From a virus: a stretch of DNA of 64,000 nucleotides. This document shows positions 15,491-48,593 of this stretch, piece after piece (positions within the stretch are counted from its first letter, which is position 1; every line of letters starts with the position of its first letter). A program made the position numbers and the translations under genes. The notes under the pieces are model-generated. The model made no database searches. It worked only from the letters and a program-made list of their open reading frames with translations, and had not been told where the DNA came from. The DNA is taken from positions 64,001-128,000 of the IMG/VR virus record IMGVR_UViG_3300044959_000348. One strand, given 5' to 3'.

Positions 15491-15497
15491 TTGATTT

Positions 15498-22155: not shown

Positions 22156-23199
22156 TCAAATGGCTATAACAACGGAAAAGTTGATTTGAATGTCCTGCAC
22201 ATCTTCCAAATGCTTGGTGAAAAACTTTATTATTCTATAAGATTTTATATTACTGCCAGCAATCCTATTAACAATCTTGCGTACATTTTTTATAATTTTC
22301 ACCAGTTTATCTCTTGTCAGTTTAACATCTAATGATATTTCAATTTGAACAAATGTTATATTGGCTATCTTGACTAGTGAAGTAACGCCATAGCGGTATT
22401 CCTCTTCTGCGTCCAGCAGTTTCAAAAATAAGCGATGTATCTTCTTGTAGTATATCTGTTTCACAGTTTTTTTTATGCCTAAGGTGTATATACCTTCATC
22501 ATACAGAGCAAAGTCTTTAAAAATACCTTCTGCATACACTTTAACTACATGCGCGCTATTTTCGCGATGCTGTGTTTTGATAGGGAGCAGAGCATATAAA
22601 CCTTTATCAGGCAATCTCTTGTATTGCATAGTCAACAGATTTAAAGGAAAATATTTGTTTCCTTGCGTTATATTGTCACATAATATCAAATATTGTGCAG
22701 GGATATCTGACATAACCAAATTTAAGTGCACAACATTTTGGTTACTAATGAGTATATCACTAACATTCATAACTGCATAAGGAATATTATTACAACTTTT
22801 TTGTAAATAACGATGTAAAAGTTGTATAACATAATATTTTGCGTATCCAACATAGCCAGACATATTCGTCAAAAAACCTATGATGTTTTGACTAAATACA
22901 CTATTTTGATCAGTTAGGTTCCAGTTTTCTGTAAGAAATCGTGTTACTGTATACACTTTGCCATAATTACTTAATACAGAAAGACTTCGCAATAAATCAT
23001 TATTTTTATTAGTTATATCCCGTGTATTATAATCGTGTATAAAATACCATTTCCTACTAAACAAATGTTCAACCAAAAAAGCGTATATAGGTTGTTTAGA
23101 GAAATGAGCAATACTGGCCTTATTATATCTATTGCTACCAAACAATAAGTTCCTACCAGATTTTTTTTGAGATAATATGCCATAAAAATAATCTAACAT
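22156..23199 (-). CDS. paralog family protein (GILSQKKSGR N-terminus)
   Basis: 347 residues. N-terminus MLDYFYGILSQKKSGRNLL has the family pattern. The C-terminal part has the strand FVQIEISLDV, a helix KIIKNVRKIVNRIAG, and the last strand INFSVVIAI. Unlike its relatives, CATAAT directly abuts the ATG, so the TATAAT-N6 rule fails here and a TAAAAT further upstream may be used. Two paralogs follow one another on the minus strand, with this one downstream. Confidence 0.75.
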   Translation of the reverse strand: MLDYFYGILSQKKSGRNLLFGSNRYNKASIAHFSKQPIYAFLVEHLFSRKWYFIHDYNTRDITNKNNDLLRSLSVLSNYGKVYTVTRFLTENWNLTDQNSVFSQNIIGFLTNMSGYVGYAKYYVIQLLHRYLQKSCNNIPYAVMNVSDILISNQNVVHLNLVMSDIPAQYLILCDNITQGNKYFPLNLLTMQYKRLPDKGLYALLPIKTQHRENSAHVVKVYAEGIFKDFALYDEGIYTLGIKKTVKQIYYKKIHRLFLKLLDAEEEYRYGVTSLVKIANITFVQIEISLDVKLTRDKLVKIIKNVRKIVNRIAGSNIKSYRIIKFFTKHLEDVQDIQINFSVVIAI

Positions 23200-23333: not shown

Positions 23334-24398
23334 TCATTCAACAATAGCTATAAGAATATCACAAGACGCAAAAACTCGACTACCTGACTTAGGTATTTCT
23401 TCATCTATTTTGTCTGGTTTCTTTTCATATGGCTTTCCTGATACGCTTTCTATAATGCTTCTAAGTATCTGCCAACTATTGTTTATATTATGAAGATGTG
23501 GATAAGTTTCAAAATAAATCTTGATATCAACAATAGTGTAATCACCTATTCTCAGTGCACTTGTAACATCTACAATATAATCATCTTGAAGATCTTTAAA
23601 TCTGCTCGCTAAAATTGGAGCCATTTTTTCTTGATATATACGCGCAACTGTCTTTGTGACTTTGGGAATATGATCAAGTGTGTTTGGAGCATGAAATATA
23701 CTAAGTATACCATGTTCTCCTTTTGGTTTTCGCACAGCATAAACCTCGTTTGTTCTTATCCAAATCTTTGGGAATAATAACTTAGATATCTTACTTCTAT
23801 AAATTTGCTCATTATAAGCTCGTGGCAATAGATAAAAAATTCCACCTATTTGTTTATATGAAGTCGTACCACATAATCCAAAATTCATAAGGTGTTGAGA
23901 CATATATTTATCACGTACATCACTTGACATCAAAATCCTTAAATCGCTATAAACTTGATACAGAACATTAACATTGATTACATCCAAGAAAATATAATCT
24001 AACGCCTCTTCTTTTTTGTCTGTATTTTTTTTGTTGTATATAGAGACTATGGCATATACTATCTTTTCTTTTATAAACCTAACTAATCTTGCTGTAATAT
24101 TCATTACTGGCAAAATAGCATAGTGTTCTTTGAGCATGTCATAAGTAAAAGAAAATTGGTGCTCACCAAAAACATATAAGTATTCAATACATAAGTTATA
24201 AAAAACTGCATTAAATCCAACAGATTCCGCAATCCTATACATACCTTCTCTCCACACTAATGAGTGACGATTGTAAAGTATTTCATAAGCGAAATTCTTC
24301 AAATCTTTCATTTGGTTTCCTCCTCGAACCATATAAGATAATAAGACTTTTCTCCTACTCCTCGATTGTGATAAAATGCCTATGTAATTGGGAAGCAT
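23334..24398 (-). CDS. paralog family protein (GILSQSRSRRK N-terminus)
   Basis: 354 residues; TAAAAT, six bases, ATG. This is the clearest copy of the N-terminal signature: IGILSQSRSRRKVLLSY. C-terminal signature: IGDYTIVDIKIYF, a helix ILRSIIESVSG, and the final hydrophobic strand CDILIAIVE. No catalytic or membrane motif. Lies between a tandem paralog and an IS605-type end. Confidence 0.78.
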   Translation of the reverse strand: MLPNYIGILSQSRSRRKVLLSYMVRGGNQMKDLKNFAYEILYNRHSLVWREGMYRIAESVGFNAVFYNLCIEYLYVFGEHQFSFTYDMLKEHYAILPVMNITARLVRFIKEKIVYAIVSIYNKKNTDKKEEALDYIFLDVINVNVLYQVYSDLRILMSSDVRDKYMSQHLMNFGLCGTTSYKQIGGIFYLLPRAYNEQIYRSKISKLLFPKIWIRTNEVYAVRKPKGEHGILSIFHAPNTLDHIPKVTKTVARIYQEKMAPILASRFKDLQDDYIVDVTSALRIGDYTIVDIKIYFETYPHLHNINNSWQILRSIIESVSGKPYEKKPDKIDEEIPKSGSRVFASCDILIAIVE

Positions 24399-25312: not shown

Positions 25313-26377
25313 CTAAAAATCAAACATAAACAAAAAAGATGCACTGCACATCAACTTGACGTTATTATTCTTTCCAACACTCATCATGTCCATTTTTTTG
25401 TTCAATAACACACCTTCACTGCCTATGCTGTGTAAAATCTTGTAGAACATTCGTATAACATCCCGTAAAAATGTATCGTCACTTTGCAAAGCATACCATA
25501 AACTCATAATCATTTCTATATCTACAACATATTTGTCACACAGCTTATCTATTCTCCGAATCACAAATCCTAATGTAGTATAAGTATTTTTGAAAAAGTC
25601 TGTATTTAGCTCCTCTTTCACATACATGGTATAGAACACTCTGAAAAAATCTATAATCTTAGACAAGCGTTCATCTTCATAAGTTTTGCTGACTCCATAA
25701 ACTTCTTTGTCTTCATATAAGCACTTAAAAGCAAATCTGATATCACTATCTATGTGCTCAACATGTGCAAAACTTCTAAGTAGTTCATTATTCTTCAAAC
25801 TCGACCTATAAGCGTTATAATTGTTGTTATCTCTATCAAAAGTAATCTTATACAACATTTCGTTACTATACGCCGTGACATTTACATAAATACTTTGCCA
25901 AAAAGAAAAAGGTATCACAACAGCCTTAGGCTTATCATGACAATAAACAACACAATTCCCAAAATACAAAGATGACAAAGTATTTTTATGACTACACAAT
26001 ACATGCAATAAATCACTTTTTGCAGAATAAGCTACAGAACACATGTTGAACAAAAGACTATGATTTAGTAAAACTTTCATAGCCTCTACATAAGCAAGTG
26101 GTTCTTTTACCAATTTCATCTCTTCTCTATCTTCGCACACTAAAAAATATTTAACCTCCAACTCAGTCATCGTTTTATGCGCCCATTTGATAGGAATACG
26201 AGAATATAAAAATCCATTATAACTATGTATAAAATCTTGATTACCACTCGACAATATAGATACAATTGATAGCAGAGTGCCATCTGACTTAGACAAATCA
26301 CAGGATAATTTCAAAACCTCCCTTTTCAAACATTTTCTTTTACTTGCGTTGCAAGCAAGCCAATGAAACCATATCAC
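25313..26377 (-). CDS. paralog family protein, divergent (WLACNASKRK N-terminus)
   Basis: 354 residues from GTG 26377. N-terminus WFHWLACNASKRKCLKR keeps the hydrophobic-Cys-x-x-basic pattern. C-terminal plan retained: strand YVVDIEMIM, helix VIRMFYKILHSIG, end strand MCSASFLFMF. The start is preceded by TTTCGGTTATATT rather than a clean TATAAT-N6. Middle of the protein poorly conserved. Confidence 0.7.
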   Translation of the reverse strand: MIWFHWLACNASKRKCLKREVLKLSCDLSKSDGTLLSIVSILSSGNQDFIHSYNGFLYSRIPIKWAHKTMTELEVKYFLVCEDREEMKLVKEPLAYVEAMKVLLNHSLLFNMCSVAYSAKSDLLHVLCSHKNTLSSLYFGNCVVYCHDKPKAVVIPFSFWQSIYVNVTAYSNEMLYKITFDRDNNNYNAYRSSLKNNELLRSFAHVEHIDSDIRFAFKCLYEDKEVYGVSKTYEDERLSKIIDFFRVFYTMYVKEELNTDFFKNTYTTLGFVIRRIDKLCDKYVVDIEMIMSLWYALQSDDTFLRDVIRMFYKILHSIGSEGVLLNKKMDMMSVGKNNNVKLMCSASFLFMFDF

Positions 26378-26415: not shown

Positions 26416-27468
26416 TTACTCCCTAATAACAATCGAAAAGACCAGGTAAGTAGCTAAAATTCTGTATGTATCAATAAAACTACGCAGACTATTTGTCATA
26501 TCTCTTGGCACAGGATAACCATAAATACTATCTAAAATGTTGAACCACGTTTCTATAATAAATCTTTTTGCATGGTCAGTGAAATTAGGTTGTAACGCCC
26601 AAATTGTATATAAATAGCAATCTATGATGTGCATATCACATATTTTTACGTGCGTCAATAAATCAAAATCGACCGCTACAAATATATTTTCGTATATGTT
26701 ATATGTACCCTTTCCTAAATGTTCCAATACATTTTGCTCATAGAAATGTTCCATAAAATCAGCTATCTTTTTATCTTGTATATCAAATTTTCTTGGTTTG
26801 TAAAAATCTTTATCATAACTGCTCACACTAACCAAATCAGATTCTCCAGACAACAGTTGCGCATTATAAAAAATACTATCGGCGCTCATGTGACCTAATC
26901 CATATTGAGAAATAACACGTACAGTTCTACCAGAAGCTAACTGTACATTCATTTTTTGACGAGAATTCCTAAAATTCCAAAAAGTCAAATTACCCCAACT
27001 TTCATATTTTGCTTGTGTTCCCGATGGGCGTTGATAATATACATGTACATTATACTTTATATCTCTATTTGACAATTTTAGAGACAAAGAAAATATTTTC
27101 AATATATTTTGCTTTTTCTTCACATAAAATCCACACATGTTGAACCAACTACATATATTAGCATACACATCACAGTTGATATACGCACTATCCGTTTTGA
27201 TTGTTTTTATTCGTGTGCCATTATTTTTGCCTACAAAAGTTACTTCTAGTTTATGAGCACTGAGGAAATATGACTTTATTACATATGTCGCCATTTTGTC
27301 GGTTTCATGTGATCCAACATACATATGTTTTGATGACAACAAGTCCAAATATAGACAAGCCATATCACCAGATTTGCTATCTTGTAAATCTTCTATACCC
27401 ACTAGCCTCCTTGCTACGCTCTTCCTTTTTGAAAATACACAAGACAAAAAAGCAGTGTACAAAAGCAT
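26416..27468 (-). CDS. paralog family protein (FLSCVFSKRKS N-terminus)
   Basis: 350 residues; TATAAT, eight bases, ATG. N-terminal signature MLLYTAFLSCVFSKRKSVAR; C-terminal strand MHIIDCYLYTI, helix FIIETWFNILDSIYG and final strand YLVFSIVIRE. First gene downstream of RNA-like element C, which reads the opposite way. Confidence 0.75.
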   Translation of the reverse strand: MLLYTAFLSCVFSKRKSVARRLVGIEDLQDSKSGDMACLYLDLLSSKHMYVGSHETDKMATYVIKSYFLSAHKLEVTFVGKNNGTRIKTIKTDSAYINCDVYANICSWFNMCGFYVKKKQNILKIFSLSLKLSNRDIKYNVHVYYQRPSGTQAKYESWGNLTFWNFRNSRQKMNVQLASGRTVRVISQYGLGHMSADSIFYNAQLLSGESDLVSVSSYDKDFYKPRKFDIQDKKIADFMEHFYEQNVLEHLGKGTYNIYENIFVAVDFDLLTHVKICDMHIIDCYLYTIWALQPNFTDHAKRFIIETWFNILDSIYGYPVPRDMTNSLRSFIDTYRILATYLVFSIVIRE

Positions 27469-30649: not shown

Positions 30650-31546
30650 TTATGCTTCCGCGTATTCTATGAGTATCTTATACTCTTTATGCTCAATAAC
30701 CCCAGTTTTGAGTGCGGCATTTGCAAAAGGTACAAGATAGCCTTCGTTTTTCATTCTTCTACTTAAACATAAGGCCAGACTTGCTCTATCTTTAGATGTC
30801 ATATTGCAAATTATTATAATATCTGCAATACCGCGCTCTTGTTCTTTTTCTTTCTTTTCTCTCCATAACCCATGAAATACTTTAGACATAACAAGACAAA
30901 CAAGCCCAACAGCCACAAAAGCGGCGCTTCCGTGAGATAAGTTTTGCAATAAATATCGCAAGTCTAAATTGCCCGTACTCTCATATGCGACAATAAGAGT
31001 TGCCATAATAGCACCAGCAACCCCAAAAAGCCACCATGATATGCGTTCAGATTTTTTTGTTTTTTCAAGATGAGGGCTATACTTTTCTGCTATATATTCT
31101 CGTACTTCTTCACTAATATTTTGTTCTGCATATGTATCTGCCTTTTCCAGTACTTTCAAAATTACTTCGCCAGCCGAAACACCTAATTCTTCCGTCAATT
31201 TGTAACCGACATCTGCATATCTACGTTTTTTTATCTTGGGTGTACGGCCATTGCTAACAGCATTCTCTAACAACAATTCCTCTAATTTATCTATTATTTT
31301 GCTGTCAGCAAGCCTTTCCTCAGCAACCTCTATAACTTCTGGATTTTCCTCTACTGCTTCCACTGTGACCTCTATTGGATCTCCACTATCAGCAAAGTAT
31401 CTGCTTATTCTCTTCCGTCTTGACAAATGTTCAAGCCGCTCAACCAGTTCTTCAAAAGCTTCTTCCGCATCACTGGAAGCGAAGTGCGCCCTCAGATTAC
31501 GAATGTACGAATACTTGCGAATCATAGGTCTACGATACCGTCTCAT
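30650..31546 (-). CDS. membrane protein with basic N-terminus and RYFAD/RRYAD motifs
   Basis: 298 residues; TATAAT, six bases, ATG. N-terminus MRRYRRPMIRKYSYIRNLRA is strongly basic and is followed by HFAS (21-24). Further motif copies: SRYFAD (48-53) and RRYAD (108-112). Acidic helical region to about residue 165, then two membrane segments (WWLFGVAGAIMATLIVAY; HGSAAFVAVGLVCLVM), then a soluble tail. Same architecture as 8274-9458. A head-internal or membrane-associated injected protein is one possibility. Confidence 0.7.
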   Translation of the reverse strand: MRRYRRPMIRKYSYIRNLRAHFASSDAEEAFEELVERLEHLSRRKRISRYFADSGDPIEVTVEAVEENPEVIEVAEERLADSKIIDKLEELLLENAVSNGRTPKIKKRRYADVGYKLTEELGVSAGEVILKVLEKADTYAEQNISEEVREYIAEKYSPHLEKTKKSERISWWLFGVAGAIMATLIVAYESTGNLDLRYLLQNLSHGSAAFVAVGLVCLVMSKVFHGLWREKKEKEQERGIADIIIICNMTSKDRASLALCLSRRMKNEGYLVPFANAALKTGVIEHKEYKILIEYAEA

Positions 31547-32343: not shown

Positions 32344-33059
32344 AAGTAAAAGCCAGTGAAGATGGAGAAAGACAAGGATTCGGTGGTAAAAAGTACATAA
32401 CTGAAAAATATGATTCACCAGCTTTTCAAGATGCGTTTGACGACTACTTATCTTTTTTAGAACCACGACTCAAAGAGGCATATCGTGTATTAGCATCTGA
32501 TGGCTCTTTTTTCATTCACATTGACCCACACGAAGTGCATTATGTAAAAGTCCTGTTGGATAGTATATTTGGCAGAGAATGTTTTATGAACGAGATTATA
32601 TGGGCATATGACTACGGTGGCAGAAGCAAACGCTATTGGCCTAGAAAGCATGATAATATACTTTGGTATGTAAAAGACTCAGACAACTACACATTCAACT
32701 ACGAAGAAATAGACAGAATACCTTACATGGCACCAGACTTAGTGGGGCCTGAAAAAGCGGCAATAGGCAAAACACCAACAGGCGTGTGGTGGATGACTAT
32801 TGTGCCCACTAATAGCAAAGAAAAAACAGGATACCCGACACAGAAACCGTTGAAACTCTTAGAAAGAATAATCAAAGTGCATAGCAATCCCGGCGACTGG
32901 GTTTTAGACTTCTTTGCCGGAAGTGGCACAACAGGAGAAGCAGCAGCCAAACATGGACGCAAATTTGTGCTTGTAGATAACAAAGAAGAAGCAGTGAATA
33001 TCATGAAAAATAGATTGTCTCACTTGGTTCCTAACTTAGAGATACAAAAAGAAGAGTAA
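32331..33059 (+). pseudogene. beta-class DNA methyltransferase lacking its N-terminal catalytic motif
   Basis: The frame is open from 32331, with protein-like sequence (FEDAFDDYLSFLEPRL-type region, DGSFFIHIDPHEVHYVKVLLD, NEIIWAYDYGG) through to motif I DFFAGSGTTGEAA near the C-terminus. The segment that should hold the DPPF/DPPY motif IV is absent. The GTG at 32535 is internal to conserved sequence, so it is not a natural start. It looks like a typical phage or type III-like modification enzyme truncated at the 5' end. Probably inactive. Confidence 0.65.
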
Positions 33060-33064
33060 AGTAT

Positions 33065-33754
33065 CTATGTAATGCGTCTGTCCCTTTTTCTAATGTTTGA
33101 AGAATAATATTTGCGTTTTGCTCTTGTCGCTCTATTTGAGTAAGGTACGCTTATTTCTTTCCCATCTTCAGGTATTATTTCAATTTCATGTGCATCTCTT
33201 TTAAATTTGTACTCACCTTTTTTCAGTTTTACTTCAATAACAGGACGCCCGTTTTTCTTTATTTTGACTAACCAATGCTCTTTTGGGTCTTTAGGGTTTT
33301 CTACAATTAAATATTCAGAAGTCACAGCCATTACAATCTTCCCCATATCACGAGGCAATTCACCGCTGAATAACATCTTTTTATTTTTATCGTCCGGCAA
33401 AAAACCATATACCTTAAAAACATTCTTCCCTTTATCGGGAACTATTGCTACATATTCATACGGTGCTTGTGCTTCTAACACCGTGACGTCAGTATTTATT
33501 CCTTTCCCACTTTCTATATCAATAGCAGCAAATTTGCATTTATCTACTTCTTCTATCGTTGTTTCACAAGTAAATGCTAACGCAAAATCCCCCGTGCTTG
33601 CCATATAATGTCCATCATAATCTGACATCAAGTCCTGCACTTGCTTGGCATAATAAGAAGACAACCTATTGTCAAACTGGATTTTGTTCACTCGATTTCT
33701 TCTTTGAGAACATGAACATCCAGATTTTGCACTGTATTGTCTAACCAATCTCAT
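33065..33754 (-). CDS. protein with MRLVRQY-type targeting peptide, unknown function
   Basis: 229 residues; start set at ATG 33754, six bases after CATAAT (the box overlaps the end of the upstream methyltransferase gene). N-terminus MRLVRQYSAKSGC matches MRLLKSYESKCGC of the gene at 55661-57046 almost position by position, although the rest of the two proteins is unrelated. SSYYAK (32-37) fits the candidate processing motif; KRKYYSS lies at the C-terminus. The middle is beta-rich. Possibly packaged together with the upstream methyltransferase. Confidence 0.7.
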   Translation of the reverse strand: MRLVRQYSAKSGCSCSQRRNRVNKIQFDNRLSSYYAKQVQDLMSDYDGHYMASTGDFALAFTCETTIEEVDKCKFAAIDIESGKGINTDVTVLEAQAPYEYVAIVPDKGKNVFKVYGFLPDDKNKKMLFSGELPRDMGKIVMAVTSEYLIVENPKDPKEHWLVKIKKNGRPVIEVKLKKGEYKFKRDAHEIEIIPEDGKEISVPYSNRATRAKRKYYSSNIRKRDRRIT

Positions 33755-33761
33755 AAACCAA

Positions 33762-36020
33762 TTATGCAAATCTATTTATATTATCTTTCCCTACTTGCAT
33801 AAGTCTTATATGTTCAGGATTACTAACATCATATTTCTTCAAACCTACATAACTTATATTGGCAGGATTAATATGTTTGACAACAGTTTCACGAAGTATA
33901 TTTTTTACCTTATCACTATTTAAATACGCACAAACATAACATGCCTCTTCAAAACTATCAGCATTGATAGCAACCACTGCATGCGTGAATATAAGCATTT
34001 GTTCTTCACTGACATGTATAACCGCAGCTTTTATATCTTTCCCTACATCACGCCAAATAACCTTATAACCAGGTATCATCATCTTTTGTACAGGCCTTAG
34101 CATACGCTCAAATGCATCTATACCTAAATACTCACTCATCTTCACCAAGTATTCATAAGCTAATGGATATACACGCTTTATCTCCTCTCTACTCATCTTT
34201 CGTTTATTCACAAAATCATAAGGTAACAACACTTTATTCTTTACACTAACACGCCACGCATCAATATCTCTGCCATTTATCAAGTCAAATAAAATATCCT
34301 TTTCTATCATTTGCTCTATCCGTGGTAGCGGCTTTCTGCTATTTTTATACTCATTCGCTACTAATACATGCTTATCATCTATTTCCTGCAAAACCCTCAT
34401 AACTATTACGCCATGCAAGTTTTTCAAATGCATACCAGCATAAGCTTGATAATCGGACCGATCAGCAATACTACCTGTAGATTTAGCTACAAACATATAA
34501 TTGTCACTTATCACATCTCCATCCAATACTTTTTCCGTTGTCCCGTCACATATTATGTATTTGTAAGTTTTGTCTGCACTCTTATGCTTTCTCACGAATA
34601 AAACAAATGGATTGATAGATGCATCACGAAAAACAGAACGTTCCCTAATATCATACAAAGCTCGTAACTCAACTTCCCCGCTCAACAAACCTCTTCTAAA
34701 CGGAATAGAAGACTTAGCTGACTTAAACAAAATGTCCGGCAAAACTAAAGCCATATGCCCATCTTCACAAAGATACCTGTCCATAGCGATGTAAGTAACT
34801 AAAGAGGACACATCCAATCCTACATTATTAATAGCTCTGTCTTCATGCAATAAGTTATACTTTGCTGCTAAGGACAATAACCGTAGCCTATCTCCTTCGT
34901 TTAAATAGTTTATGTTGTACCACGGAGGATTGCCTACAACATAATCAAAACAACCAGCATATTTCATGTGTAAATAACCATCAATCTCCTGTCTTATAAC
35001 ATTATACATAACAAAAGAATGTGCCTTTATTGATTCCAACTTTTCATGCATACTTTTTATATATTGTCCATATAAGTCATCTGTATCACTGCTAAAACTT
35101 TGAAAAATAAGAAATGCTTTGTCTTTATCTACACCAAATGGTAACATAATCATACCTATAAACGGATGCACTGCCGCTTCAAAAGTGGAAAACATATCCA
35201 CGGTTGTTTGGAACCGATTCAAAAAATCTACATTATACACATTCAATCGACACTCAACATTCAAATCAATCAATTCCTTTATCATCTGAACTTTAACAGT
35301 AGCAACAGCCAATGGATTTAGTTCAAATCCATATAGGTTATGCGAAACAAAATAAGCCACATCACCTACATTATGCCATTTACTTTTTATTCTGCGCAAC
35401 ACAGATAACAAAAAAACACCATCACCACAAGTAGGGTCTAAAAACCTTTTCTCTACCCAATTACCATCATCTTGTAAAACCTTATCTAACACAAAATCCA
35501 CTAACTTCTCAGGTGTATAATACTCACCTAATATGCGTCTTATGTGTTTGGATACTAAATCTTGATAAATACCGCCTAAGCTGTTATCAAGAGAGATACT
35601 ATTATACAAAGATATAACATCTCCAACAATAATATCCCAGAAATCCATATAAAAAGAAAATGGAGTTAATAAAGAACTATTATAAAAGTTATCAAAAAAT
35701 CGTCCTTCATTAAGAGATATAAATACATCTAACATATTTTCCTTATGCATTACGAAATCCTTGCACACTCGTAATGCATACACTTTTATGATTATATCAT
35801 AAACACAAAATAACGAAACCAAAAACCTTACAAAATCTTCTCTGTTTTGCACTACAATTCCATATTCCTTGGAAATGCCATTCAAATACTTGGCAATGCT
35901 CTTACTATTCAAAAACCTGTCCTTTTTGATTTCGTGATAATGTTTTATAACATAATCTGAAGCATATGAATAATCTTGTGACTTTTCGACGCAACCATAA
36001 ATATTGTATAGCAATCTCAC
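33762..36020 (-). CDS. large N6-adenine methyltransferase with putative targeting peptide
   Basis: 752 residues from GTG 36020, exactly six bases after TATAAT. Type IIG/Eco57I-like layout: helical N-terminal region, GEYYTPEKLVDFVL, motif I LDPTCGDGVF (about 190-200), catalytic NPPW (about 360), then a recognition region. No nuclease motif seen in the N-terminal part. The first 21 residues, MRLLYNIYGC then DYSYAS, match the N-terminal motif shared by putative head proteins here. If that is a packaging signal, this enzyme would travel in the virion. Divergent from 36089. Confidence 0.8.
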   Translation of the reverse strand: MRLLYNIYGCVEKSQDYSYASDYVIKHYHEIKKDRFLNSKSIAKYLNGISKEYGIVVQNREDFVRFLVSLFCVYDIIIKVYALRVCKDFVMHKENMLDVFISLNEGRFFDNFYNSSLLTPFSFYMDFWDIIVGDVISLYNSISLDNSLGGIYQDLVSKHIRRILGEYYTPEKLVDFVLDKVLQDDGNWVEKRFLDPTCGDGVFLLSVLRRIKSKWHNVGDVAYFVSHNLYGFELNPLAVATVKVQMIKELIDLNVECRLNVYNVDFLNRFQTTVDMFSTFEAAVHPFIGMIMLPFGVDKDKAFLIFQSFSSDTDDLYGQYIKSMHEKLESIKAHSFVMYNVIRQEIDGYLHMKYAGCFDYVVGNPPWYNINYLNEGDRLRLLSLAAKYNLLHEDRAINNVGLDVSSLVTYIAMDRYLCEDGHMALVLPDILFKSAKSSIPFRRGLLSGEVELRALYDIRERSVFRDASINPFVLFVRKHKSADKTYKYIICDGTTEKVLDGDVISDNYMFVAKSTGSIADRSDYQAYAGMHLKNLHGVIVMRVLQEIDDKHVLVANEYKNSRKPLPRIEQMIEKDILFDLINGRDIDAWRVSVKNKVLLPYDFVNKRKMSREEIKRVYPLAYEYLVKMSEYLGIDAFERMLRPVQKMMIPGYKVIWRDVGKDIKAAVIHVSEEQMLIFTHAVVAINADSFEEACYVCAYLNSDKVKNILRETVVKHINPANISYVGLKKYDVSNPEHIRLMQVGKDNINRFA

Positions 36021-36088
36021 TACGCTATTATACACCCTTTGTGTCTTTCTTCCGAAAATTGTGCGATATTTCGGTTACAAAGAATACT

Positions 36089-36532
36089 ATGATTGAAGAA
36101 AATGATAACAGGCTAGAAATGGACGTTATGCAAAATTTATTGAACAAAGTATTTGGAAATGACAATGAAGGCTATATAAGAGGTGTGCGTTTTTTGAACA
36201 ACGATAAAGGCAAACCAGCGGCAATCGTTGAAATCATAGACTTTGACGCAAAAACAACAAATAATATACAAAGCATTAGATATGAAATACTGGCAAAACT
36301 AGCAGAAGACATAAACATACCCCTATGGATATTAATGATAGACTCCTTCAATAGAAAATTTTATTTGTATAGCGTCAAAAATGTGGAAGAACTAATGGCA
36401 TATAGAGAAGAAAATTACAAAGATTTTTTCATAGAATATAATGAAAAACAAATGCTCACAAAACTAAGGGAAATAGGTGTGAAAGCATCTTCTGTAGAAG
36501 AAGTGTTTGGACGATTTTTGTATCCACTTTAG
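36089..36532 (+). CDS. hypothetical protein, possible nuclease-like fold
   Basis: 147 residues from ATG 36089 (TACAAA, seven bases, ATG; TTTCGG just upstream). The stretch GKPAAIVEIIDFDAK then QSIRYEILAKLAED and IPLWILMID has the strand-helix-strand order of small PD-(D/E)XK-type domains, but the Lys of the (D/E)xK motif is not evident. Divergent neighbour of the large methyltransferase. It could be an inactive or unrelated partner; I would not call it a restriction enzyme. Confidence 0.55.
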   Translation: MIEENDNRLEMDVMQNLLNKVFGNDNEGYIRGVRFLNNDKGKPAAIVEIIDFDAKTTNNIQSIRYEILAKLAEDINIPLWILMIDSFNRKFYLYSVKNVEELMAYREENYKDFFIEYNEKQMLTKLREIGVKASSVEEVFGRFLYPL

Positions 36533-39947: not shown

Positions 39948-40490
39948 TCAATTCATAAAAGCCAAATCCATCCTACGCAGAATGTCATCTGCCTTGGACA
40001 TCAAGGCAACATCTATCATGAACAGTATCGGAGCCAAATAATGCTTTGGATAAAGCATCTTGGCCAACATATGCCTTTCGCTGCCTTTATCGATAATGAC
40101 TTTGAAAACATACGCCTGTTTACCCTGCAATTCTATCTCTTCATGGTCTATATACAGCTTTGCCCCCAAAGCCTCCACTATGTGTGGTAGGATTTGTAGT
40201 AGCTCATCTAAATGCTTATCTAAATACTTCATATCTCGTAAATCCGTGACTTTACTGATTATGCTGGATATTCCTCCAAGCAGAAATGTAGCAATATATT
40301 CTTTTATTTCTTCTGTTTCACCAGATAGCTTGCTTTCTATGAGCGAGTTAGCAGTAGCGTTTATCAGATCGGTGTCAGATGAATTGATATCATACCATTG
40401 CACTAAATCGTTTCTGAAGGTTTCAACAAAAGGCGCCATCTTAGGCGCAGACACAGGAAAGGTTGGTCCACACTGCTTTTCACTTTGCAT
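39948..40490 (-). CDS. hypothetical protein
   Basis: 180 residues from ATG 40490, which is exactly six bases after CATAAT; an ATG two codons earlier directly abuts the box. Helical protein with a middle hydrophobic helix (IATFLLGGISSIISKV). An AACCGAAC box lies 23 bases upstream. No family recognised. Confidence 0.65.
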   Translation of the reverse strand: MQSEKQCGPTFPVSAPKMAPFVETFRNDLVQWYDINSSDTDLINATANSLIESKLSGETEEIKEYIATFLLGGISSIISKVTDLRDMKYLDKHLDELLQILPHIVEALGAKLYIDHEEIELQGKQAYVFKVIIDKGSERHMLAKMLYPKHYLAPILFMIDVALMSKADDILRRMDLAFMN

Positions 40491-40497: not shown

Positions 40498-41027
40498 TTA
40501 TGTATATGAAATAGTTCGGTTTTCCTGAGGTAGTTTGGTGTCTGAACTACTTACACGATTTATTCTCCCCTCTGCTGCTTTAGCATAGGAGTATTCTTTC
40601 TCTATTAGAATGAAATGGCGGCCTAACCTTTTGGCTACTGCTCCTGTTGTGCCTGTTCCTGCCATAGGGTCAAGTATTATACCGTTAGGTGGAACCGAAA
40701 TTTTTATCACCCGTTCCAATAATGCTTCAGGTTTTTGTGTGGAATGCAGTTTCTTACCGTCCTCTCTTTTCAATCGTTCTTTCCCTGTGCATATAGGCAA
40801 ATGCCAAACACACGGTGCAATAGTAGAACCACCATATGCCTTTGCAGCCTCTCTGTCAAAGTAATAACCCTTAGCATTCTTATCTTTTACAGCCCAAACG
40901 AGGGTCTCTATCGCATTTGTAAAACGAACACCTACTTGGGTAATAATTGCTCAGCATTAGCATTTCCACTTTGCATGGCAACATATTGTTTGTCTGTGCT
41001 GAACATTCGTCTTTTTAGGCGTCTCAT
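40498..41027 (-). pseudogene. beta-class methyltransferase relic with targeting-type N-terminus
   Basis: TATAAT, six bases, ATG 41027 starts MRRLKRRMFSTDKQ, an N-terminus of the recurrent basic/processing type, but the frame stops after 31 codons. In another frame follows the C-terminal half of a methyltransferase: ETLVWAVKDKNAKGYYFD, KKLHSTQKPEALL, and motif I DPMAGTGTTGAVA. The catalytic DPPY half is gone. The promoter and leader peptide of one coding region now precede a truncated enzyme, so this is a relic. Confidence 0.65.
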
Positions 41028-41076: not shown

Positions 41077-43569
41077 ATGGTATCTATAGACTATAGAAAT
41101 AAAATTCTGATTTTATTTGAACATTTGTTTGCTGAAAAAGAAGTTGAGGGCAAAGGTGGAAGGGTAAATCTAATCAAGTGCAAAAGGAAATACTTAGAAA
41201 GTTGTTTGCCAAAGGTGATTGAATTTATTGAGCACAAAACAAAAGAATGCCCTGATTTTAGAAATGAGTTATATGAAAAGCTGTGGTCGTTTTTTAGTTC
41301 TTATGTTAATGAAGTGGGCAACATATGTTACAGCTCTACTGCATACCCCAAAACGGCATATATAAAAATACCCACCGACAAGGATATGTATTTATTCACC
41401 AAAGTAGATGGATTGTATTACATAAAAACAGATGTGCTTGTTCAATCTGTTTCTATAAACTTAGGGAATGTGTCTCTGTATTTTGATGCCAGCGAATTTG
41501 AGTACAAAAAAGCCAATGAAAGGAAAAACTTTTTCTATGAACTATCAAAAGTAGATGACAATAAAATCGTAATCAAAGTATCTTATGTTACTGGAAATCA
41601 TAAGTTTGATATTGAAGAGCTGCATAAAAGAATAAAAGAACAGGGATATGATTTATCTATTGACGATTTAAGCAAATCGATACAAACCTTTGAGAAACAA
41701 TCAAAAGTTGATTACTTCTTGAATCCTAAAGCTAAAAGTTTTCTAAAAGAACAATTTAGTCTGTATCTATTGGATTACATACTCAAATCTGATGAAATAA
41801 CCGTGGATAGAGCAAATAAGATAAATATATTACGAGATGTTGCATTTTACATTATAGATTTTATAACTCAGTTTGAGGAGGAGGTTGTAAAGATATGGGA
41901 AAAGCCAAAGTTTGTGCTTAAATCAAACTATGTTTTGACTCTTAGCGAAATATTAGACAAAGGTGGCTTTGAAATAATCAAAAAAATAGAAACTCATGTC
42001 AATTGTGATAAACAAGTACAAGAGTGGTTCGACTTAGAACTAATAAACAACAAACCAGACTCTTTATTGAAACAAGATTTATTTGATGGGAATTTAGAGG
42101 AACAATACAGAAATCTGCCTATCGATACTAAATATTTCAAAGATTTAGAAGGTGATATACTCAGTTTATTTGACGACTTGGAGGAGGAGATTGATGGGTA
42201 TCTTATCAAAAGCGACAATTGGCAGGCTTTGAACATGTTAAAAAACAGATACAGAGGTCGTGTCAAGCTTATATACATTGACCCGCCCTTTAATCTAGGG
42301 TATAATGAAGCTTATGAATATTTGACGGATTATTTAGATTCCAGTTGGTCTGTTATGCTTCACAATCGAATAAAGTTAGCGTATGATATTTTATCTGAAC
42401 AGGGGCTTATGTTTGTGCGATGTGATGCTAATGGCGAGCATATTGTGCGTTTTATAATGAATGATATATTTGGAAAGGAAAATTTCAGAAATAATATCAA
42501 TATCAATCGTGCAAATAACGTGCTGCTTCAAAAGAGTCATAATGTTGCATTATGTTTGCCTCCTGTGCATGAATTTATAATAATGTATGGGAAGAGTGAA
42601 AAGGCTTTGATTAAGAAGCTGACTATACCTATAATAGATAGAAAAACGGGAGAGATGATAGATAAAATGCCTGGTCAATGGAGGAGACTGGAGATTGGTG
42701 AGAAGGCGAGTGGCCGGCATATAAGTTTGGAATACGATTTTTATGGTTTGAAGCCTGGAAAAGGAAAGTGCTGGCTATGGTCTAAGGATAGAGCGTATAA
42801 AGCATATGATAACTATCAGGAATATTTAAAGGTTGCAGAACAGACAGGAGAAGATATTGAAATGTATGCCCAAAGGACTGGAATAACCGACTTTGCTAGG
42901 ATAATAGAAAAAAATGGTAAGCGAATAGCGGAGTACTACGCACACAGTAGATATGCTGATTTGCTAAGTGATGATTGGTATGATATTCCAAGTTATGGAG
43001 GTAATGTAGGCTTCAAAACAGCAAATGCACCTAAGTTGTTGGAGAGAGTGATATCCCTTGCTTCGGATGAAGGAGATATAGTCATGGACTTCTTCTTAGG
43101 CAGTGGCACCACCGCTGCTGTTGCACATGAACTTAAAAGAAAATGGATTGGCATAGAAATGGGAGAACATTTTTATACAGTTATAATACCTAGAATGAAA
43201 AAGGTGTTATATAAATGTGGAGGCTTTTTCAAATATTTTGAATTAGAACAATACGATGATGTATTGTCAAAAGTTGTATATAGAGATAGTGAATTCATAG
43301 ATTTAGCACAGGCAGGCATTCTAACTTATGCATTTATGTTTGACGACAAGCTTTTATCGTATGTGGATTGTTCAACGAATGGCAATTATTATGTGACTGA
43401 CAGACTATCTAATCTTTATGATAGTATAGATATAGCTGAAAGTTTATCTTTACATACTGGAAAAGCAATAAAGAAGATAGTAGGTGATAGGGTCACTTTT
43501 TCGGACGGGAAAAGCATTGATATGAGGCATGTGTCTCTTTCAGAACTCAAAAACTTCTTGTTCTGGTAA
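41077..43569 (+). CDS. type III restriction-modification methyltransferase (Mod)
   Basis: 830 residues. A long N-terminal region (about 400 residues, unassigned) is followed by catalytic IDPPFNLGY (about 401-409), a FxRCDANGEH segment, and motif I MDFFLGSGTTAAVAHE (about 670-685), i.e. beta-class order. The next gene, 5 bases on, is a helicase-nuclease with Res features, which identifies the pair as type III R-M. Mod methylates adenine in an asymmetric site and gives Res its specificity. The N-terminal extension is longer than in typical Mod proteins. Confidence 0.85.
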   Translation: MVSIDYRNKILILFEHLFAEKEVEGKGGRVNLIKCKRKYLESCLPKVIEFIEHKTKECPDFRNELYEKLWSFFSSYVNEVGNICYSSTAYPKTAYIKIPTDKDMYLFTKVDGLYYIKTDVLVQSVSINLGNVSLYFDASEFEYKKANERKNFFYELSKVDDNKIVIKVSYVTGNHKFDIEELHKRIKEQGYDLSIDDLSKSIQTFEKQSKVDYFLNPKAKSFLKEQFSLYLLDYILKSDEITVDRANKINILRDVAFYIIDFITQFEEEVVKIWEKPKFVLKSNYVLTLSEILDKGGFEIIKKIETHVNCDKQVQEWFDLELINNKPDSLLKQDLFDGNLEEQYRNLPIDTKYFKDLEGDILSLFDDLEEEIDGYLIKSDNWQALNMLKNRYRGRVKLIYIDPPFNLGYNEAYEYLTDYLDSSWSVMLHNRIKLAYDILSEQGLMFVRCDANGEHIVRFIMNDIFGKENFRNNININRANNVLLQKSHNVALCLPPVHEFIIMYGKSEKALIKKLTIPIIDRKTGEMIDKMPGQWRRLEIGEKASGRHISLEYDFYGLKPGKGKCWLWSKDRAYKAYDNYQEYLKVAEQTGEDIEMYAQRTGITDFARIIEKNGKRIAEYYAHSRYADLLSDDWYDIPSYGGNVGFKTANAPKLLERVISLASDEGDIVMDFFLGSGTTAAVAHELKRKWIGIEMGEHFYTVIIPRMKKVLYKCGGFFKYFELEQYDDVLSKVVYRDSEFIDLAQAGILTYAFMFDDKLLSYVDCSTNGNYYVTDRLSNLYDSIDIAESLSLHTGKAIKKIVGDRVTFSDGKSIDMRHVSLSELKNFLFW

Positions 43570-43573
43570 AGCT

Positions 43574-46429
43574 ATGAAGGTGAAAACCGTAGAAAATATA
43601 CTCAGCAAAATCTTAGAGAACAGCAGTCATTACTATGATTTATCTGAGTATTCTATGTTTTCGAGTCAGAAGCAATTATATGATTATCAAAAAAGTGCTA
43701 TCGAGCGTATCGCACGAGTGCTATGGAAGTATTATGCAAACTACAAAGCCGATAAGGAACTTTGGCATAATGAATATAAAAAGTTTGGTTTAGATGATGA
43801 TTATATTGTTGTGAATAGTCGATCTGCTGCGAATATATATGCTGAGGCAGGATATCCAATCGAAGTTCGCCATAATACATATCGGCTTTCCATAAAATAT
43901 GTTTTAAACAGGGCATGTTTGTGGATGGCAACAGGCTCAGGTAAGACCGTAGTAGCTGTGGCTTTAATAGATTTGTTGCTTGATCTGATAAAAAAAGGTC
44001 GATTGCCCAAAGGGGATATCTTGTTTTTGACGTACACTGATGTGCTCATAGATCAGTTTAAAAGTACATTAGATGAGTACAATAGAGGCCGTGATAGAAA
44101 GATAATATGTGAAAATTTGAAAAGATATACGGAAGCTAAGCATAGTGCCAGAGAGGAAGATAGAATTATCTTTTATTATCGTGCGGACAATATATCTGAC
44201 GAAAAGGGTATAGAGAGATTGGATTACAAAGATTTGCCTACTAATTTTTATTTGATATTAGACGAGGCCCATAAAGGGGATAACTCTGATAGTAAACGAA
44301 AAGCGATATTCTCTGTGCTTTCAAAGGATGGGTTTTTGTTTAACATGTCTGCTACTTTTGTAGATGAAATTGACCATATCACATGTGCCTATCGATATAA
44401 CTTAGCGGATTATGTTCAGAATGGATATGGTAAGAACATAGCTATTATGCAGTCTAATCTTGAAGAGCTAGAGCACAAAACAGATTTTTCTGATAAAGAG
44501 AAGAGAAGGGTTGTTCTTAAAAGTCTAATGCATTTAGCCTTACTAGGTAAAGTTAAAACAGAAGAGGCTAATGGTTATTATCCAGAACCTTTGATGTTGG
44601 TTCTTGGACATTCTGTTAACACAGAAGATGCAGATATTGAAGTGTTTTTTGAACAAATAGCTTCTATTGCCAAGAGATCTAACATAGAAGATATATTTGA
44701 AAGTGTCAAATCAGAGTTATTGGCGGATTTGTGTAATATGATGTTTCCATTTAAAGAATCCAAGAGCTTTTCATATGAATATTTTAGTGCTCTGCTAAAC
44801 AATCTAACCATAGATGATTTTTATAAATATGTCTTTAACACTTCTGGTGCTAGTGATGGAAATATTGAAGTAATAAAGATACGGAATAATGATGAAGAGT
44901 TATTATTTAAGCACACAAATGCAGATAGGCCTTTTGCTTTGATAAAGATTGGCAACATATCTCCTTGGCTTAAGGACAAGGTTAGTGGTTATTTTATCAG
45001 TGAGAACTATGCGGAGGAAAAGATATTTGAAGGCATTGATGATGAGTATTCACATATCAGAATACTCATGGGGTCCCGTGCTTTTTATGAAGGCTGGGAT
45101 ACACCAAGGCCGTATATAGTATTATATATCAACATAGGCAAAGGAAAAGATGCCACTAAGTTTGTTTTACAGTCGCTGGGCAGAGGTGTAAGACTGGTGC
45201 CTAAGGAAGGTATGAGAGGTAGTTTGAGAAAGAATGATATTAAGGCTTATGAAGACATAAAATATGCTGAGTTTTTGGAGGCTTTGTACATATATGGGAC
45301 AAGAGCACAAAATATAAAGGACACTACGAATATATTGAAGAAAGAAGAAGAAATGGTGCTGGCAAATCATTTGATTGAAGAAAACACATCCATAAAAGTA
45401 CCTAATGATTTACTTATACTGCCTTACTATGAAGAAGGTGAATATGTAGGAAATGTACATAAGTTTCGTTGCTCTGAGACGGAGTTGGATATACTTAGGG
45501 ATGTTATGATGAACTGCTCTGATGAGTGGTTGCATGTCAAATTTGGGTTTACGCCTAATGAGATTAGGTTTTTGAGAAAGTATGTTGAAGATGATAATAT
45601 GTTTGAGATAACTAATCAAGATAGTGTTCGCAGCGTGGAGACTCTATTTAGCATGTTGCGTAAACAGCTGTTGAGATGGTTGTTCCCAAAAGGATTTGTT
45701 CATTATGCTGAATGTATTATACATTATAAACATCTTAGGGTAAAGGCTTCTGTGTTGCATGAATTAGAAAACAAGTGTGCAGAGGTTATTAAGTCTAAAA
45801 GTGTTATAGGCAAAAGTTTGGGTAATATGAAATTAGTTTATGCGAAAGAGCATGTATATAATCCTATGTTCTTATCCGCGCAAGGGTACATACTTTATGG
45901 GATAAATACTGATAGTGAGAGAGAGTTTGTAGATGAAGTATTAGAGCCAGAAACTCTATTGTCGCAGTATTCATTTGTATTTGGCAAAATCCATGAAAAT
46001 ATAGATGATGCATATATACCTTACATTGACGAAAATGGTAACGTTCACCAATTCAAACCAGACTTTGTTTTTTGGATTTTGGACGGAAAAACTCTGCACA
46101 TAGTTTTTGTGGACCCAAAGAGCTTAGAGTTTGCATCGGCCTATAGGAAGATAGATGGATACAAGAAAAACTTTGAACAAAACGAAAAACCAAAAGTGTT
46201 CCAGTATGAAGGTTATGAAGTTAAAGTATGGCTTTTCATGTACAACAAACAAAGCACTGTTCCTGAAGAATATAAGCAGTATCATATTACACATGTGAAG
46301 GAAATATTTGAGAAAGTGTTGGGTAAATCTGAACACAATATGCTGCAAGCGCATATGGAAACAGCTGTGCATCATCATTATAAGTTATTTACGAGCTCTT
46401 GTAGCCGCGAATGTTCTTGGCGATATTAG
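43574..46429 (+). CDS. type III restriction endonuclease subunit (Res)
   Basis: 951 residues from ATG 43574, just after the Mod stop. SF2 helicase motifs: ATGSGKT (about 119-125), LDEAHKGD (about 229-236), SATF (about 258), LGRGVRLVP (about 535). C-terminal PD-(D/E)XK-type nuclease: KPDFVFWILDGK with VDPKS about 17 residues later (about 827-850). All expected Res parts are present and intact, so restriction may be active. Unusual cargo for a virus, as it could attack competing phages or unmodified host DNA. Confidence 0.88.
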   Translation: MKVKTVENILSKILENSSHYYDLSEYSMFSSQKQLYDYQKSAIERIARVLWKYYANYKADKELWHNEYKKFGLDDDYIVVNSRSAANIYAEAGYPIEVRHNTYRLSIKYVLNRACLWMATGSGKTVVAVALIDLLLDLIKKGRLPKGDILFLTYTDVLIDQFKSTLDEYNRGRDRKIICENLKRYTEAKHSAREEDRIIFYYRADNISDEKGIERLDYKDLPTNFYLILDEAHKGDNSDSKRKAIFSVLSKDGFLFNMSATFVDEIDHITCAYRYNLADYVQNGYGKNIAIMQSNLEELEHKTDFSDKEKRRVVLKSLMHLALLGKVKTEEANGYYPEPLMLVLGHSVNTEDADIEVFFEQIASIAKRSNIEDIFESVKSELLADLCNMMFPFKESKSFSYEYFSALLNNLTIDDFYKYVFNTSGASDGNIEVIKIRNNDEELLFKHTNADRPFALIKIGNISPWLKDKVSGYFISENYAEEKIFEGIDDEYSHIRILMGSRAFYEGWDTPRPYIVLYINIGKGKDATKFVLQSLGRGVRLVPKEGMRGSLRKNDIKAYEDIKYAEFLEALYIYGTRAQNIKDTTNILKKEEEMVLANHLIEENTSIKVPNDLLILPYYEEGEYVGNVHKFRCSETELDILRDVMMNCSDEWLHVKFGFTPNEIRFLRKYVEDDNMFEITNQDSVRSVETLFSMLRKQLLRWLFPKGFVHYAECIIHYKHLRVKASVLHELENKCAEVIKSKSVIGKSLGNMKLVYAKEHVYNPMFLSAQGYILYGINTDSEREFVDEVLEPETLLSQYSFVFGKIHENIDDAYIPYIDENGNVHQFKPDFVFWILDGKTLHIVFVDPKSLEFASAYRKIDGYKKNFEQNEKPKVFQYEGYEVKVWLFMYNKQSTVPEEYKQYHITHVKEIFEKVLGKSEHNMLQAHMETAVHHHYKLFTSSCSRECSWRY

Positions 46430-46617
46430 TAATAAACAATTGCAACCTTTCTAAGTCTATCTTGCATTAGACTAAATAATATGATGCCAGATTATATTTT
46501 ATTGTTCTATTCACACTGACAGAAAGGGCAATTTCCATAAGCATTTTAGATTCTAATCCTTATATTCGTGTTTCTTTTATAGAAGAAATAAATTTAGTAT
46601 AATTGGTGTACAGACAA
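46430..46617 (+). promoter_or_regulatory. intergenic with TATAAT promoter for element D
   Basis: No gene. ATTTAGTATAATTGGTGTAC carries TATAAT at 46598-46603 but no start codon follows at 6-8 bases. Instead RNA-like element D begins about 14 bases downstream. Nearly the same sequence precedes element F (52831-52850). Confidence 0.5.
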
Positions 46618-46745
46618 AGCGTAGGGCCGGCCGGTCCGAAGTCACGCCTGTGGAGAGATGGGCCTCTGCATGTGTGATGAGTAATCATCTACATGTAAGC
46701 CCGCTCGATGAAGCAGGAAGCCTCTGAAAAGAGGAGGGAGCCACC
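46618..46745 (+). ncRNA. IS605-scaffold-like RNA element D
   Basis: The best-preserved element: GTCCGAAGTCACGCCTGTGG, GAGATGGGCCTCTGC (a stem), TGATGAGTAATCATC (stem), the core TCGATGAAGCAGGAAGC, and a terminal hairpin CCTCT-GAAA-AGAGG then AGGG. Preceded by its own TATAAT. The core matches the IS605-type end at 37642-37738. No tnpB nearby. It abuts a 5'-truncated T9SS-domain gene. Confidence 0.55.
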
Positions 46746-46757
46746 AACTCAAACCTA

Positions 46758-47135
46758 TTGTATGTGTGCCAAGCGCCTGGTGCCACAACAAACAATTCCG
46801 GAAACTGGGGCAGCGCACAAGTATACCAAAATTGCACTTCTGGATGCAGTGCTTTGTTTTATCAAGAAAAAGAAACAGATAGCTTTCAACACACACAAAA
46901 TAAGATTTATGTTTATCCTAATCCTTTCAAAGACAAACTGAATTATCGTTACTCTGGCACTTTACCTGCTACGATACGAGTGTATAATGAGTTAGGTGTA
47001 TTGATTGCTGAGCAGACTATATATGACTATGAAGATGCTATACTACTCGACGAATATATATCTGATGGTGTTTATATCATTTGTTTTGCAAGTTCAGAAG
47101 AAAGCTATTGTCGTTTGGTTATCAAAACTAATTGA
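46758..47135 (+). pseudogene. C-terminal fragment of a type IX secretion cargo protein
   Basis: The last about 75 residues have the T9SS type A sorting-domain pattern: VYPNPFKDKLNYRY, IRVYNELGVLIAEQ, ISDGVYIICFAS and a final basic strand. Upstream residues (NSGNWGSAQVYQNC) look like a repeat of a secreted protein. The frame runs back into element D without a start, so an IS-type insertion or deletion removed the 5' part. T9SS is restricted to Bacteroidota and relatives, which points to the host range. Confidence 0.7.
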
Positions 47136-48225
47136 TACGTTTCTTCTTATCTTCTGTTATGATTGGGTTTTTTATAAGATCTTCATATTCTGGTTCTTCT
47201 ACCAATGTCTCTATGAGTTTGTGGTAGTAATCCCTATGTTCTTTGAATTCGTCATGGTATTTTTCTATTTCACTTAATATATTTTCATCTATGAGTTTAT
47301 CGTGTTGTATAATGCTTACGATATCTTCGATGATTTTTTCTTTTTTAGCCATCTCAAAAAGGCACAGCAGTGTCTCTTCTTTAGTGTCTATTATACAATT
47401 GGCAAAATGGAAAGTAAAGTAATCCGGCGCCATCATAGTAAATAGGATTACCCATGGAGTCACAGCATATATGAATGGTTCCTTTTGCGATTTGAGTGCT
47501 CTGGATATATTATACTGAGCCTTTTCAGATAAATCTATGTCTAACATATGTATATCTTGAATTCTAAAAGGATATTCAGTGTCTATCAATTTTATTCCTA
47601 ACCACACGCTTCCTAACGCAAAATAGGCAAAAGGCACACTTACATCATTCTTAGCAGCACATTCTTCCATTATACCATGTATTTCTTCATCTTGCTTGTG
47701 CATATCATTTATAAAATCTGATAGATATTTGAAATATTTGGATAAAACTTTATCCACAATCACCACTCCACTGTTGTGTTCTAAATCTAACAATTTGAAT
47801 TTAGTGTATAGTCTTCTCCTATCGCCTCTATTTATTCGACTAAAATACCTATTTCTTCTACGATTATATTTGAATACTTCTGCTTTCTGTGCATGTCGCT
47901 CTTTTGCTTTGATTTCTTCATACAGGTAATAAGCAAACATAGGAAACATATGTGTAATATTCTCTTTGGTCGATGATATAGCATTACACACAAATTCTAT
48001 AGCTTTCTTATCATTTTCTTTATGAATATATTGTACGAAATAAAAAGCCTCTGCAAAAAATGTGAATAGTTTTGAAAATTCTCCTTTCAGTTTCCATCTA
48101 ATAGAGCAAAGTCTCCTTTTAGGTTTTTGGATAGCAAGTGGTATCAAATAACTGAATCTTTTGAAGATTGAAAGAACAACTTTGTGGCTTGTGTTGGCTT
48201 TTTTGTATGTTCGTAATAAACGCAT
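47128..48225 (-). CDS. hypothetical helical protein with MRLLRTY N-terminus
   Basis: 365 residues; TATAAT, six bases, ATG. Basic N-terminus MRLLRTYKKANTS of the shared type; a second basic cluster RRRNRYFSRINRGDRRR at about residue 125 contains the candidate motif RYFS. The remainder is helical with hydrophobic segments (WVILFTMMAPDYF). No family recognised. Its 3' end overlaps the T9SS fragment by 8 bases (convergent). Divergent promoter shared with 48267. Confidence 0.65.
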   Translation of the reverse strand: MRLLRTYKKANTSHKVVLSIFKRFSYLIPLAIQKPKRRLCSIRWKLKGEFSKLFTFFAEAFYFVQYIHKENDKKAIEFVCNAISSTKENITHMFPMFAYYLYEEIKAKERHAQKAEVFKYNRRRNRYFSRINRGDRRRLYTKFKLLDLEHNSGVVIVDKVLSKYFKYLSDFINDMHKQDEEIHGIMEECAAKNDVSVPFAYFALGSVWLGIKLIDTEYPFRIQDIHMLDIDLSEKAQYNISRALKSQKEPFIYAVTPWVILFTMMAPDYFTFHFANCIIDTKEETLLCLFEMAKKEKIIEDIVSIIQHDKLIDENILSEIEKYHDEFKEHRDYYHKLIETLVEEPEYEDLIKNPIITEDKKKRIN

Positions 48226-48231
48226 TTGTCA

Positions 48232-48260
48232 ATTATACTGAACCGAACCGCGAGTATAAT
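48232..48260. promoter_or_regulatory. back-to-back divergent TATAAT boxes with AACCGAAC between
   Basis: Minus-strand TATAAT at 48232-48237 and plus-strand TATAAT at 48255-48260, 17 bases apart, each six bases from its start codon. AACCGAAC (48241-48248) sits between them. There is no room for separate -35 hexamers. Confidence 0.6.
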
Positions 48261-48266
48261 TTACAT

Positions 48267-48593
48267 ATGCGCTTACTCAAAAAGACGTTCTCTGAAGGGT
48301 GGGAGAAAGCGGGTTTTTCGGAGTCTGAGGCAAAGAGATGGAGAGATAAAGGATTTGATTTGAAGAGAGCTCTGGAATGGTCAAGTTTTGATTTTGCGCC
48401 AGATGAAGCACAGAAGTGGCGTGATATTGGCATCTCGTCAGCAGAAAAAGCCAGCTTGTGGCGTGAATATGATTTTACACCACAAGAAGCCAAGGAATGG
48501 CTCGAAGTTACAGACAACCCTGTCGAAGCATACATGTTTGCCACCGCACTAACACCCCAAGAAGCCAAAAACCTATTGGCTGATTTAGCATAA
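48267..48593 (+). CDS. small protein of Trp-containing tandem repeats
   Basis: 108 residues from ATG 48267 (TATAAT, six bases). After MRLLKKTF come about five degenerate repeats of 16-18 residues with the pattern W-x-x-x-G/D-F-x-x-x-E-A-x-x-W (e.g. GFSESEAKRWRDKGFD, FAPDEAQKWRDIGIS, FTPQEAKEWLEV). Helical repeats of this sort are known in some bacterial proteins of unclear role. Soluble, no signal peptide; possibly a protein-binding factor. Confidence 0.65.
   Translation: MRLLKKTFSEGWEKAGFSESEAKRWRDKGFDLKRALEWSSFDFAPDEAQKWRDIGISSAEKASLWREYDFTPQEAKEWLEVTDNPVEAYMFATALTPQEAKNLLADLA

Follow-up and report, generated by a model that had tools for sequence, protein, structure and literature searches.

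Among the closest described systems is DarB of phage P1, a head-located adenine methyltransferase that is fused to a helicase and protects DNA in cis (PMC5512222, PMC9024508). The first 30 residues of DarB suffice for its packaging (PMC9024508, PMC5512222), and homologues of DarB in the Thermus Lalka phages have been proposed to be packaged as well (PMC11437467). In phage T4, tags of about 10 to 20 residues are cleaved from the internal proteins and from Alt (PMC7411985, PMC9958956). Here, we describe a phage gene that encodes a predicted adenine methyltransferase and that was originally predicted to be packaged and injected, with the P1 Dar proteins as precedent. That precedent is closer than was claimed, since DarB is itself a virion-packaged adenine methyltransferase (PMC9024508, PMC5512222). 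Like DarB and its Lalka homologues, the protein described here is a phage adenine methyltransferase for which an N-terminal packaging tag is proposed; unlike DarB, it has no helicase domain, is 752 rather than more than 2,000 residues long, and is a candidate for packaging. In T4, too, late proteins with nothing else in common bear a short N-terminal tag, but we claim no similarity between the tag sequences, and a gp21-like protease was not found in this phage. A virion methyltransferase is in itself a known kind of protein; what would be new is one that is helicase-free, derived from a type IIG enzyme, equipped with a short tag, and encoded by an unrelated phage.

The gene lies in a 64,000-nucleotide window, which comprises bases 64001 to 128000 of a 170,695-bp virus record. 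Sequence matches identify the virus as a tailed phage: its terminase is ~28% identical to known phage terminases over ~85 to 90% of its length, and an Amidase_2 protein, a baseplate-hub match, and a transglycosylase-like tail protein are all encoded. Searches of IMG/VR with the methyltransferase, capsid, terminase, GroEL, primase, and a structural protein as queries found no close relative of the phage and yielded just distant terminases (best, 32%) and fragments, so the evidence on leaders presented below comes almost entirely from one genome.

The methyltransferase gene spans positions 33762 to 36020 on the minus strand and encodes 752 residues from a GTG start at 36020; the longest open reading frame (757 codons) begins at another GTG, at 36035, 15 nucleotides upstream. 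Pfam families N6_Mtase and Eco57I both match the protein, confirming the reading frame, coordinates, and identity that had been predicted for it. In PADLOC, the protein is matched best by a type IIG restriction-methyltransferase (PDLC03630; 7.7e-72), and the 757-residue frame matched methyltransferase families only, with no fusion to an SF2 helicase. Gamma-class motifs and a C-terminal recognition region are present in the one chain. Motif X (GEYYTP), motif I (DPTCGDG), and motif IV (NPPW) are kept, in columns that are largely invariant among 34 aligned sequences.

An HMM built from 33 relatives matched residues 150 to 745 strongly and residues 43 to 94 weakly, and nothing in it matched residues 1 to 42. 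These relatives are mostly single-chain "N-6 DNA methylase" proteins of 1,020 to 1,230 residues, both plasmid and genomic, and many carry a nuclease-type motif (GRxDSxYxxxIIEYK) near residues 55 to 100; they are offset from the phage protein by ~180 to 220 residues in the alignment. Thus, the methyltransferase core and C-terminal region of type IIG enzymes align with the phage protein over residues 43 to 745, but in place of their ~200-residue N-terminal PD-(D/E)XK nuclease, which is absent from the phage chain, it has ~42 residues without detectable homology. The nuclease part of the HMM matched neither the methyltransferase nor any other predicted protein of the record convincingly, and the genes adjoining the methyltransferase matched no nuclease family. 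By this alignment, the protein is a predicted orphan adenine methyltransferase that derives from a type IIG enzyme through loss of the nuclease domain. A divergent gene on the plus strand (36089 to 36532), whose start lies ~55 bp from the methyltransferase promoter on its upstream side, matches no family; by eye alone it resembles a nuclease, but the HMM ruled it out as the lost domain.

The predicted fold agrees with this assignment. An AF2 model made from the 34 sequences had a mean pLDDT of 77, with residues 1 to 38 below 50, a value that is expected where there are no aligned rows and that is only a weak sign of disorder. The nearest solved folds found by Foldseek were CamA (E value, 2e-22) and M.BseCI, followed by BrxX/PglX and MmeI. 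CamA and M.BseCI are orphan adenine methyltransferases, and the methyltransferase and recognition domains of the phage protein are predicted to fold like theirs; however, identity to them is just 13 to 14%, the N-terminal part differs, and the phage gene is viral and has a late-type promoter.

This promoter motif, which reads GYATAATT followed by five nucleotides and the start codon, was noticed in the DNA of genes that share an N-terminal leader. Its TATAAT begins 12 (sometimes 13) nucleotides ahead of the start codon, and spacings of 12 to 13 nucleotides stand out; at this distance, transcription would begin at the start codon, giving a leaderless mRNA. The strict form (GYATAATT-N5-RTG) occurs 16 times in the window compared to 0.36 copies expected, and consensus copies include those at 2330, 7509, 8261, and 15485 and, on the minus strand, 31559, 48238, and 57059. 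A slightly looser form precedes ~47 called genes. The copies have no conserved -35 box, and T4 late promoters likewise do without one (PMC2988020). Carriers of the motif include the head-core gene, the Amidase_2 protein, the transglycosylase-like tail protein, lipoproteins, and many long structural-looking open reading frames. It is absent from the genes for DnaG primase, helicases, GroEL/ES, DnaJ, and type III Mod/Res and from all eight other intact methyltransferase genes. Given how strong the motif is and what its carriers do, we infer that it is a late promoter. Since a TnpB-like fragment is among the carriers, the motif might be more general, such as a host-type promoter.

The copy at the methyltransferase (GTATAATA; 36026 to 36033, minus strand) leaves 6 nucleotides between TATAAT and the GTG and has a score of 6.2, rank 27 of 433 candidate starts. 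Because this promoter is shared with genes of the virion module and because all genes that start with MRL[LIV], the methyltransferase among them, carry it, we regard the methyltransferase as a probable late gene that bears a shared tag; its expression together with the virion genes is predicted from the promoter motif. The reading that we hold first, at slightly less than an even chance, is that this predicted orphan, type IIG-derived methyltransferase acts late and marks progeny DNA in the producing cell. Transcribed together with the virion genes from a late-type leaderless promoter, the enzyme would, late in infection, modify a single recognition sequence in the DNA of the phage itself, and progeny genomes marked before packaging would resist restriction in the next host. 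Several observations weigh against this reading. A non-late promoter, as on the other eight methyltransferase genes, would suffice for progeny marking, and a tag would not be needed. In addition, the late timing comes from sequence, the promoter could be of the general host type given the TnpB-like carrier, and the methyltransferase copy ends in A rather than T at an otherwise invariant base.

The tag may add packaging into the virion to the same protective job. It comprises residues 1 to 20 (MRLLYNIYGCVEKSQDYSYA; 35961 to 36020, minus strand) and lies outside the region that is homologous to relatives; DYSYAS occupies residues 16 to 21 of the 752-residue reading, as the original prediction had it. 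Six genes of the phage start with MRL[LIV] (at 8274, 33754, 36020, 48225, 48267, and 57046) compared to ~0.16 expected by chance (binomial P, 2e-8), and the excess remains if an arginine at position 2 is taken as given (P, 4e-7). The late-type promoter is found on all six. DNA-level copying of one 5' cassette is an unlikely source of the likeness because the codons for R, L, and L vary from gene to gene. The claim that the methyltransferase bears the leader found on head proteins thus holds in part: MRL[LIV] starts exceed chance and share a promoter, but the leader of the methyltransferase, when left out and scored with a profile of eight leaders, fit with a P value of only ~0.03 against random N termini. 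It scored no better because it lacks the basic residues of the other leaders, having almost no net positive charge, and even this value is optimistic since the leaders were picked by eye.

The gene next to the methyltransferase (33065 to 33754, minus strand; start, MRLVRQYSAKSGCSC) encodes 229 residues without a family match and has a late-type promoter of its own (GCATAATT; 33760 to 33767, minus strand). It had been said to have the same leader, and its ATG at 33754 does read MRLVRQYSAKSGC. Further leaders, each behind a late-type promoter, begin a 394-residue protein (MRLIAKSYIKKNKPKSLRYKVFS; 8274 to 9458, plus strand), a 298-residue protein (MRRYRRPMIRKYSYIRNLRAHFA; 30650 to 31546, minus strand), a 365-residue protein (MRLLRTYKKANTSHKVVLSIFKRFS; 47128 to 48225, minus strand), a 108-residue protein (MRLLKKTFSEGW; 48267 to 48593, plus strand), and a 461-residue protein with a GTG start (MRLLKSYESKCGCNHMREYFS; 55661 to 57046, minus strand). 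A putative major capsid protein of 530 residues (60566 to 62158, minus strand) was assigned by gene order and layout only; PHROGs, Pfam, and PDB sequence searches gave no match for it, and its single-sequence AF2 model was too poor to use. Directly before its gene are encoded two acidic proteins with MRAL and MSIK leaders, also behind late-type promoters. These are a head-module protein of 113 residues (62169 to 62510, minus strand; leader MRALIRKISQIERKHHSKGDAHA, followed by SEE) and a head-core-like protein of 637 residues (62531 to 64000, minus strand; leader MSIKTKRICFGGKCTIAPKGVRKNYA, followed by SIS), whose start lies beyond the window at position 128444 of the record. Gene order, then, is what would tie this leader type to the head module. 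It supports just the MRAL and MSIK proteins as head proteins, and the MRLL carriers, which had also been taken for head proteins, are putative ones.

These leaders raise the possibility, which we take seriously but place some way below even, that the methyltransferase is delivered in the virion. A tag of ~20 residues would bring it into the prohead core, and after injection it would methylate the DNA before host restriction acts. Perhaps the tag is a capsid-targeting sequence like those of T4 and P1, clipped after YA by a prohead protease. In favor of delivery, the methyltransferase has the promoter of the head-core and leader genes, it shares the MRL[LIV] start with five other genes, all six being late-type and differing in their synonymous codons, its tag lies outside the conserved region, the adjacent gene starts alike, and precedents exist in P1 DarB (PMC9024508, PMC5512222) and the T4 internal proteins (PMC7411985). 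That only one of ~9 intact methyltransferases combines a late promoter with a tag favors delivery over progeny marking. Delivery, a prediction from sequence, is held back by the atypical tag, which is hardly basic and among the least typical of the set. Furthermore, ~9% of random interior stretches have a boundary between YA and S at about that position. [YF][AS] boundaries are mildly enriched in late genes (P, ~0.05; 0.002 for the MR/MK starts, which include the methyltransferase). Over the whole proteome, a prohead-protease motif of the form [RK]x(0-2)[YF][AS] was not convincingly enriched (115 compared to 89 expected), and a few leader proteins stood out. Searches of the record's proteins found neither an S77 or S78 family prohead protease nor the T4-type protease (gp21-like) and Gp23 families; a search for portal families also gave no match but was silent in its controls too and is hence uninformative. 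Relatives that could bear on the leader were not found in IMG/VR. Collectively, these results make the leader a weak candidate for a packaging signal. What stands of the predicted virion-delivered methyltransferase is an intact-looking, nuclease-free enzyme whose tag and late-type promoter are shared with virion-module genes; no prohead protease or cleavage motif was established, the tag is atypical, and late expression would serve progeny methylation too. With a little more reserve still, we consider it possible that the phage has a compact, helicase-free virion methyltransferase in which the nuclease of a type IIG enzyme was replaced by a short capsid-targeting tag, and, equally tentatively, that this occurred in a phage unrelated to P1 and T4 that uses the tag on a set of late proteins. 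Progeny marking and delivery agree on anti-restriction methylation of phage DNA and differ in where it takes place.

The likeness among the tags may also have a simpler source. An [AC]G-starting codon directly follows the promoter in 9 of its 16 copies in the window, two lipoprotein genes included, which suggests that Arg-2 (the "MR" start) is largely a feature of the promoter and takes some weight from the delivery reading. Accordingly, the tag could be a by-product of leaderless start sites (promoter, arginine codon, and hydrophobic codons) on an interchangeable anti-restriction methyltransferase from a fast-turnover set, as the ~9 intact and several broken methyltransferase genes of the phage would suit. 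We find this rather unlikely: MRL[LIV] is over-represented even with Arg-2 given, the codons vary, and two carriers of related leaders adjoin the putative capsid gene. Because the by-product reading overlaps with progeny marking, our confidences in the readings do not sum to one. A role for the methyltransferase in controlling packaging or some other late step, comparable to that of methylation in P1 progeny production, rather than in countering restriction is improbable: the late-type promoter would fit such a role, but the type IIG-derived specificity suggests restriction avoidance.

A relic at 41027 had been described as the same leader in front of another methyltransferase half, and its anatomy is correct. 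A leader-like open reading frame of 31 codons (MRRLKRRMFSTDKQYVAMQSGNANAEQLLPK; 40932 to 41027, minus strand) has TATAATT before its ATG at the usual distance, and it abuts the C-terminal half of a beta-class methyltransferase (40498 to 40926, minus strand) from which the DPPY half is missing. Positions 40552 to 40926 are homologous to two intact methyltransferases of the same phage, from residues 119 and 173 onward. A second, broken methyltransferase beside a leader-like frame would favor delivery; however, the leader frame (MRRLKRRMFSTDKQ...) ends in a stop ~6 nucleotides before the methyltransferase homology begins and is out of frame with it. A deletion may thus have brought the two together, and the leader could originally have been that of a different gene.

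The phage has ~9 intact methyltransferase genes and several broken ones, suggesting rapid turnover of the set. Broken or split genes were seen at 32535 to 33059, 40498 to 40926, and 9526 to 10754. The enzyme class studied here is ordinary; its regulation is the interesting part, and its delivery tag is, from sequence, plausible but unproven. If the tag works, an ordinary restriction enzyme would have become an injected protection enzyme within one phage, losing its nuclease and gaining a packaging tag, and 20 residues would be at hand as a tag that brings cargo into the head of a large phage. Should the tag have no such role, the regulon would still suggest that one of ~9 methyltransferases is timed with the particle genes, a point relevant to when phage DNA is marked.

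Several other features of the record were observed. A type III Mod and Res pair is encoded at 41077 to 43569 and 43529 to 46429, and a second Mod, 37% identical, lies at record positions 44119 to 46725. By sequence, Hsp20-like, DnaJ-like, GroEL, and GroES chaperones occur together in this one phage (31627 to 32082; record positions 14867 to 15721 and 52660 to 54610). Two identical 93-residue open reading frames lie ~3 kb apart (record positions 40017 to 40298 and 43066 to 43347). Three proteins encoded at record positions 46746 to 49364 (L005:8746-11364) are built of EYFDDPEEAxEW-type repeats and resemble the product of 48267 to 48593 in the window. Short sequences like ends or remnants of IS605/TnpB-type elements, with a promoter-like start (TATAATTATAACATGAGAGC) on them, were found at 36646 and at record positions 150019 to 150419. 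Finally, ~10 proteins of 350 to 380 residues, most of them otherwise hardly alike by BLAST, share the N-terminal motif [FIL]L[SP][QC]x[RK][SN]x[RK][RK] (15498 to 16619, 20723 to 21868, 22156 to 23199, 23334 to 24398, 25313 to 26377, 26416 to 27468, 49451 to 50503, 50623 to 51684, and 51692 to 52813, with stubs near 14948 and 28625). Several of them have the late-type promoter, and the motif is possibly a second candidate leader, for ejected head proteins.
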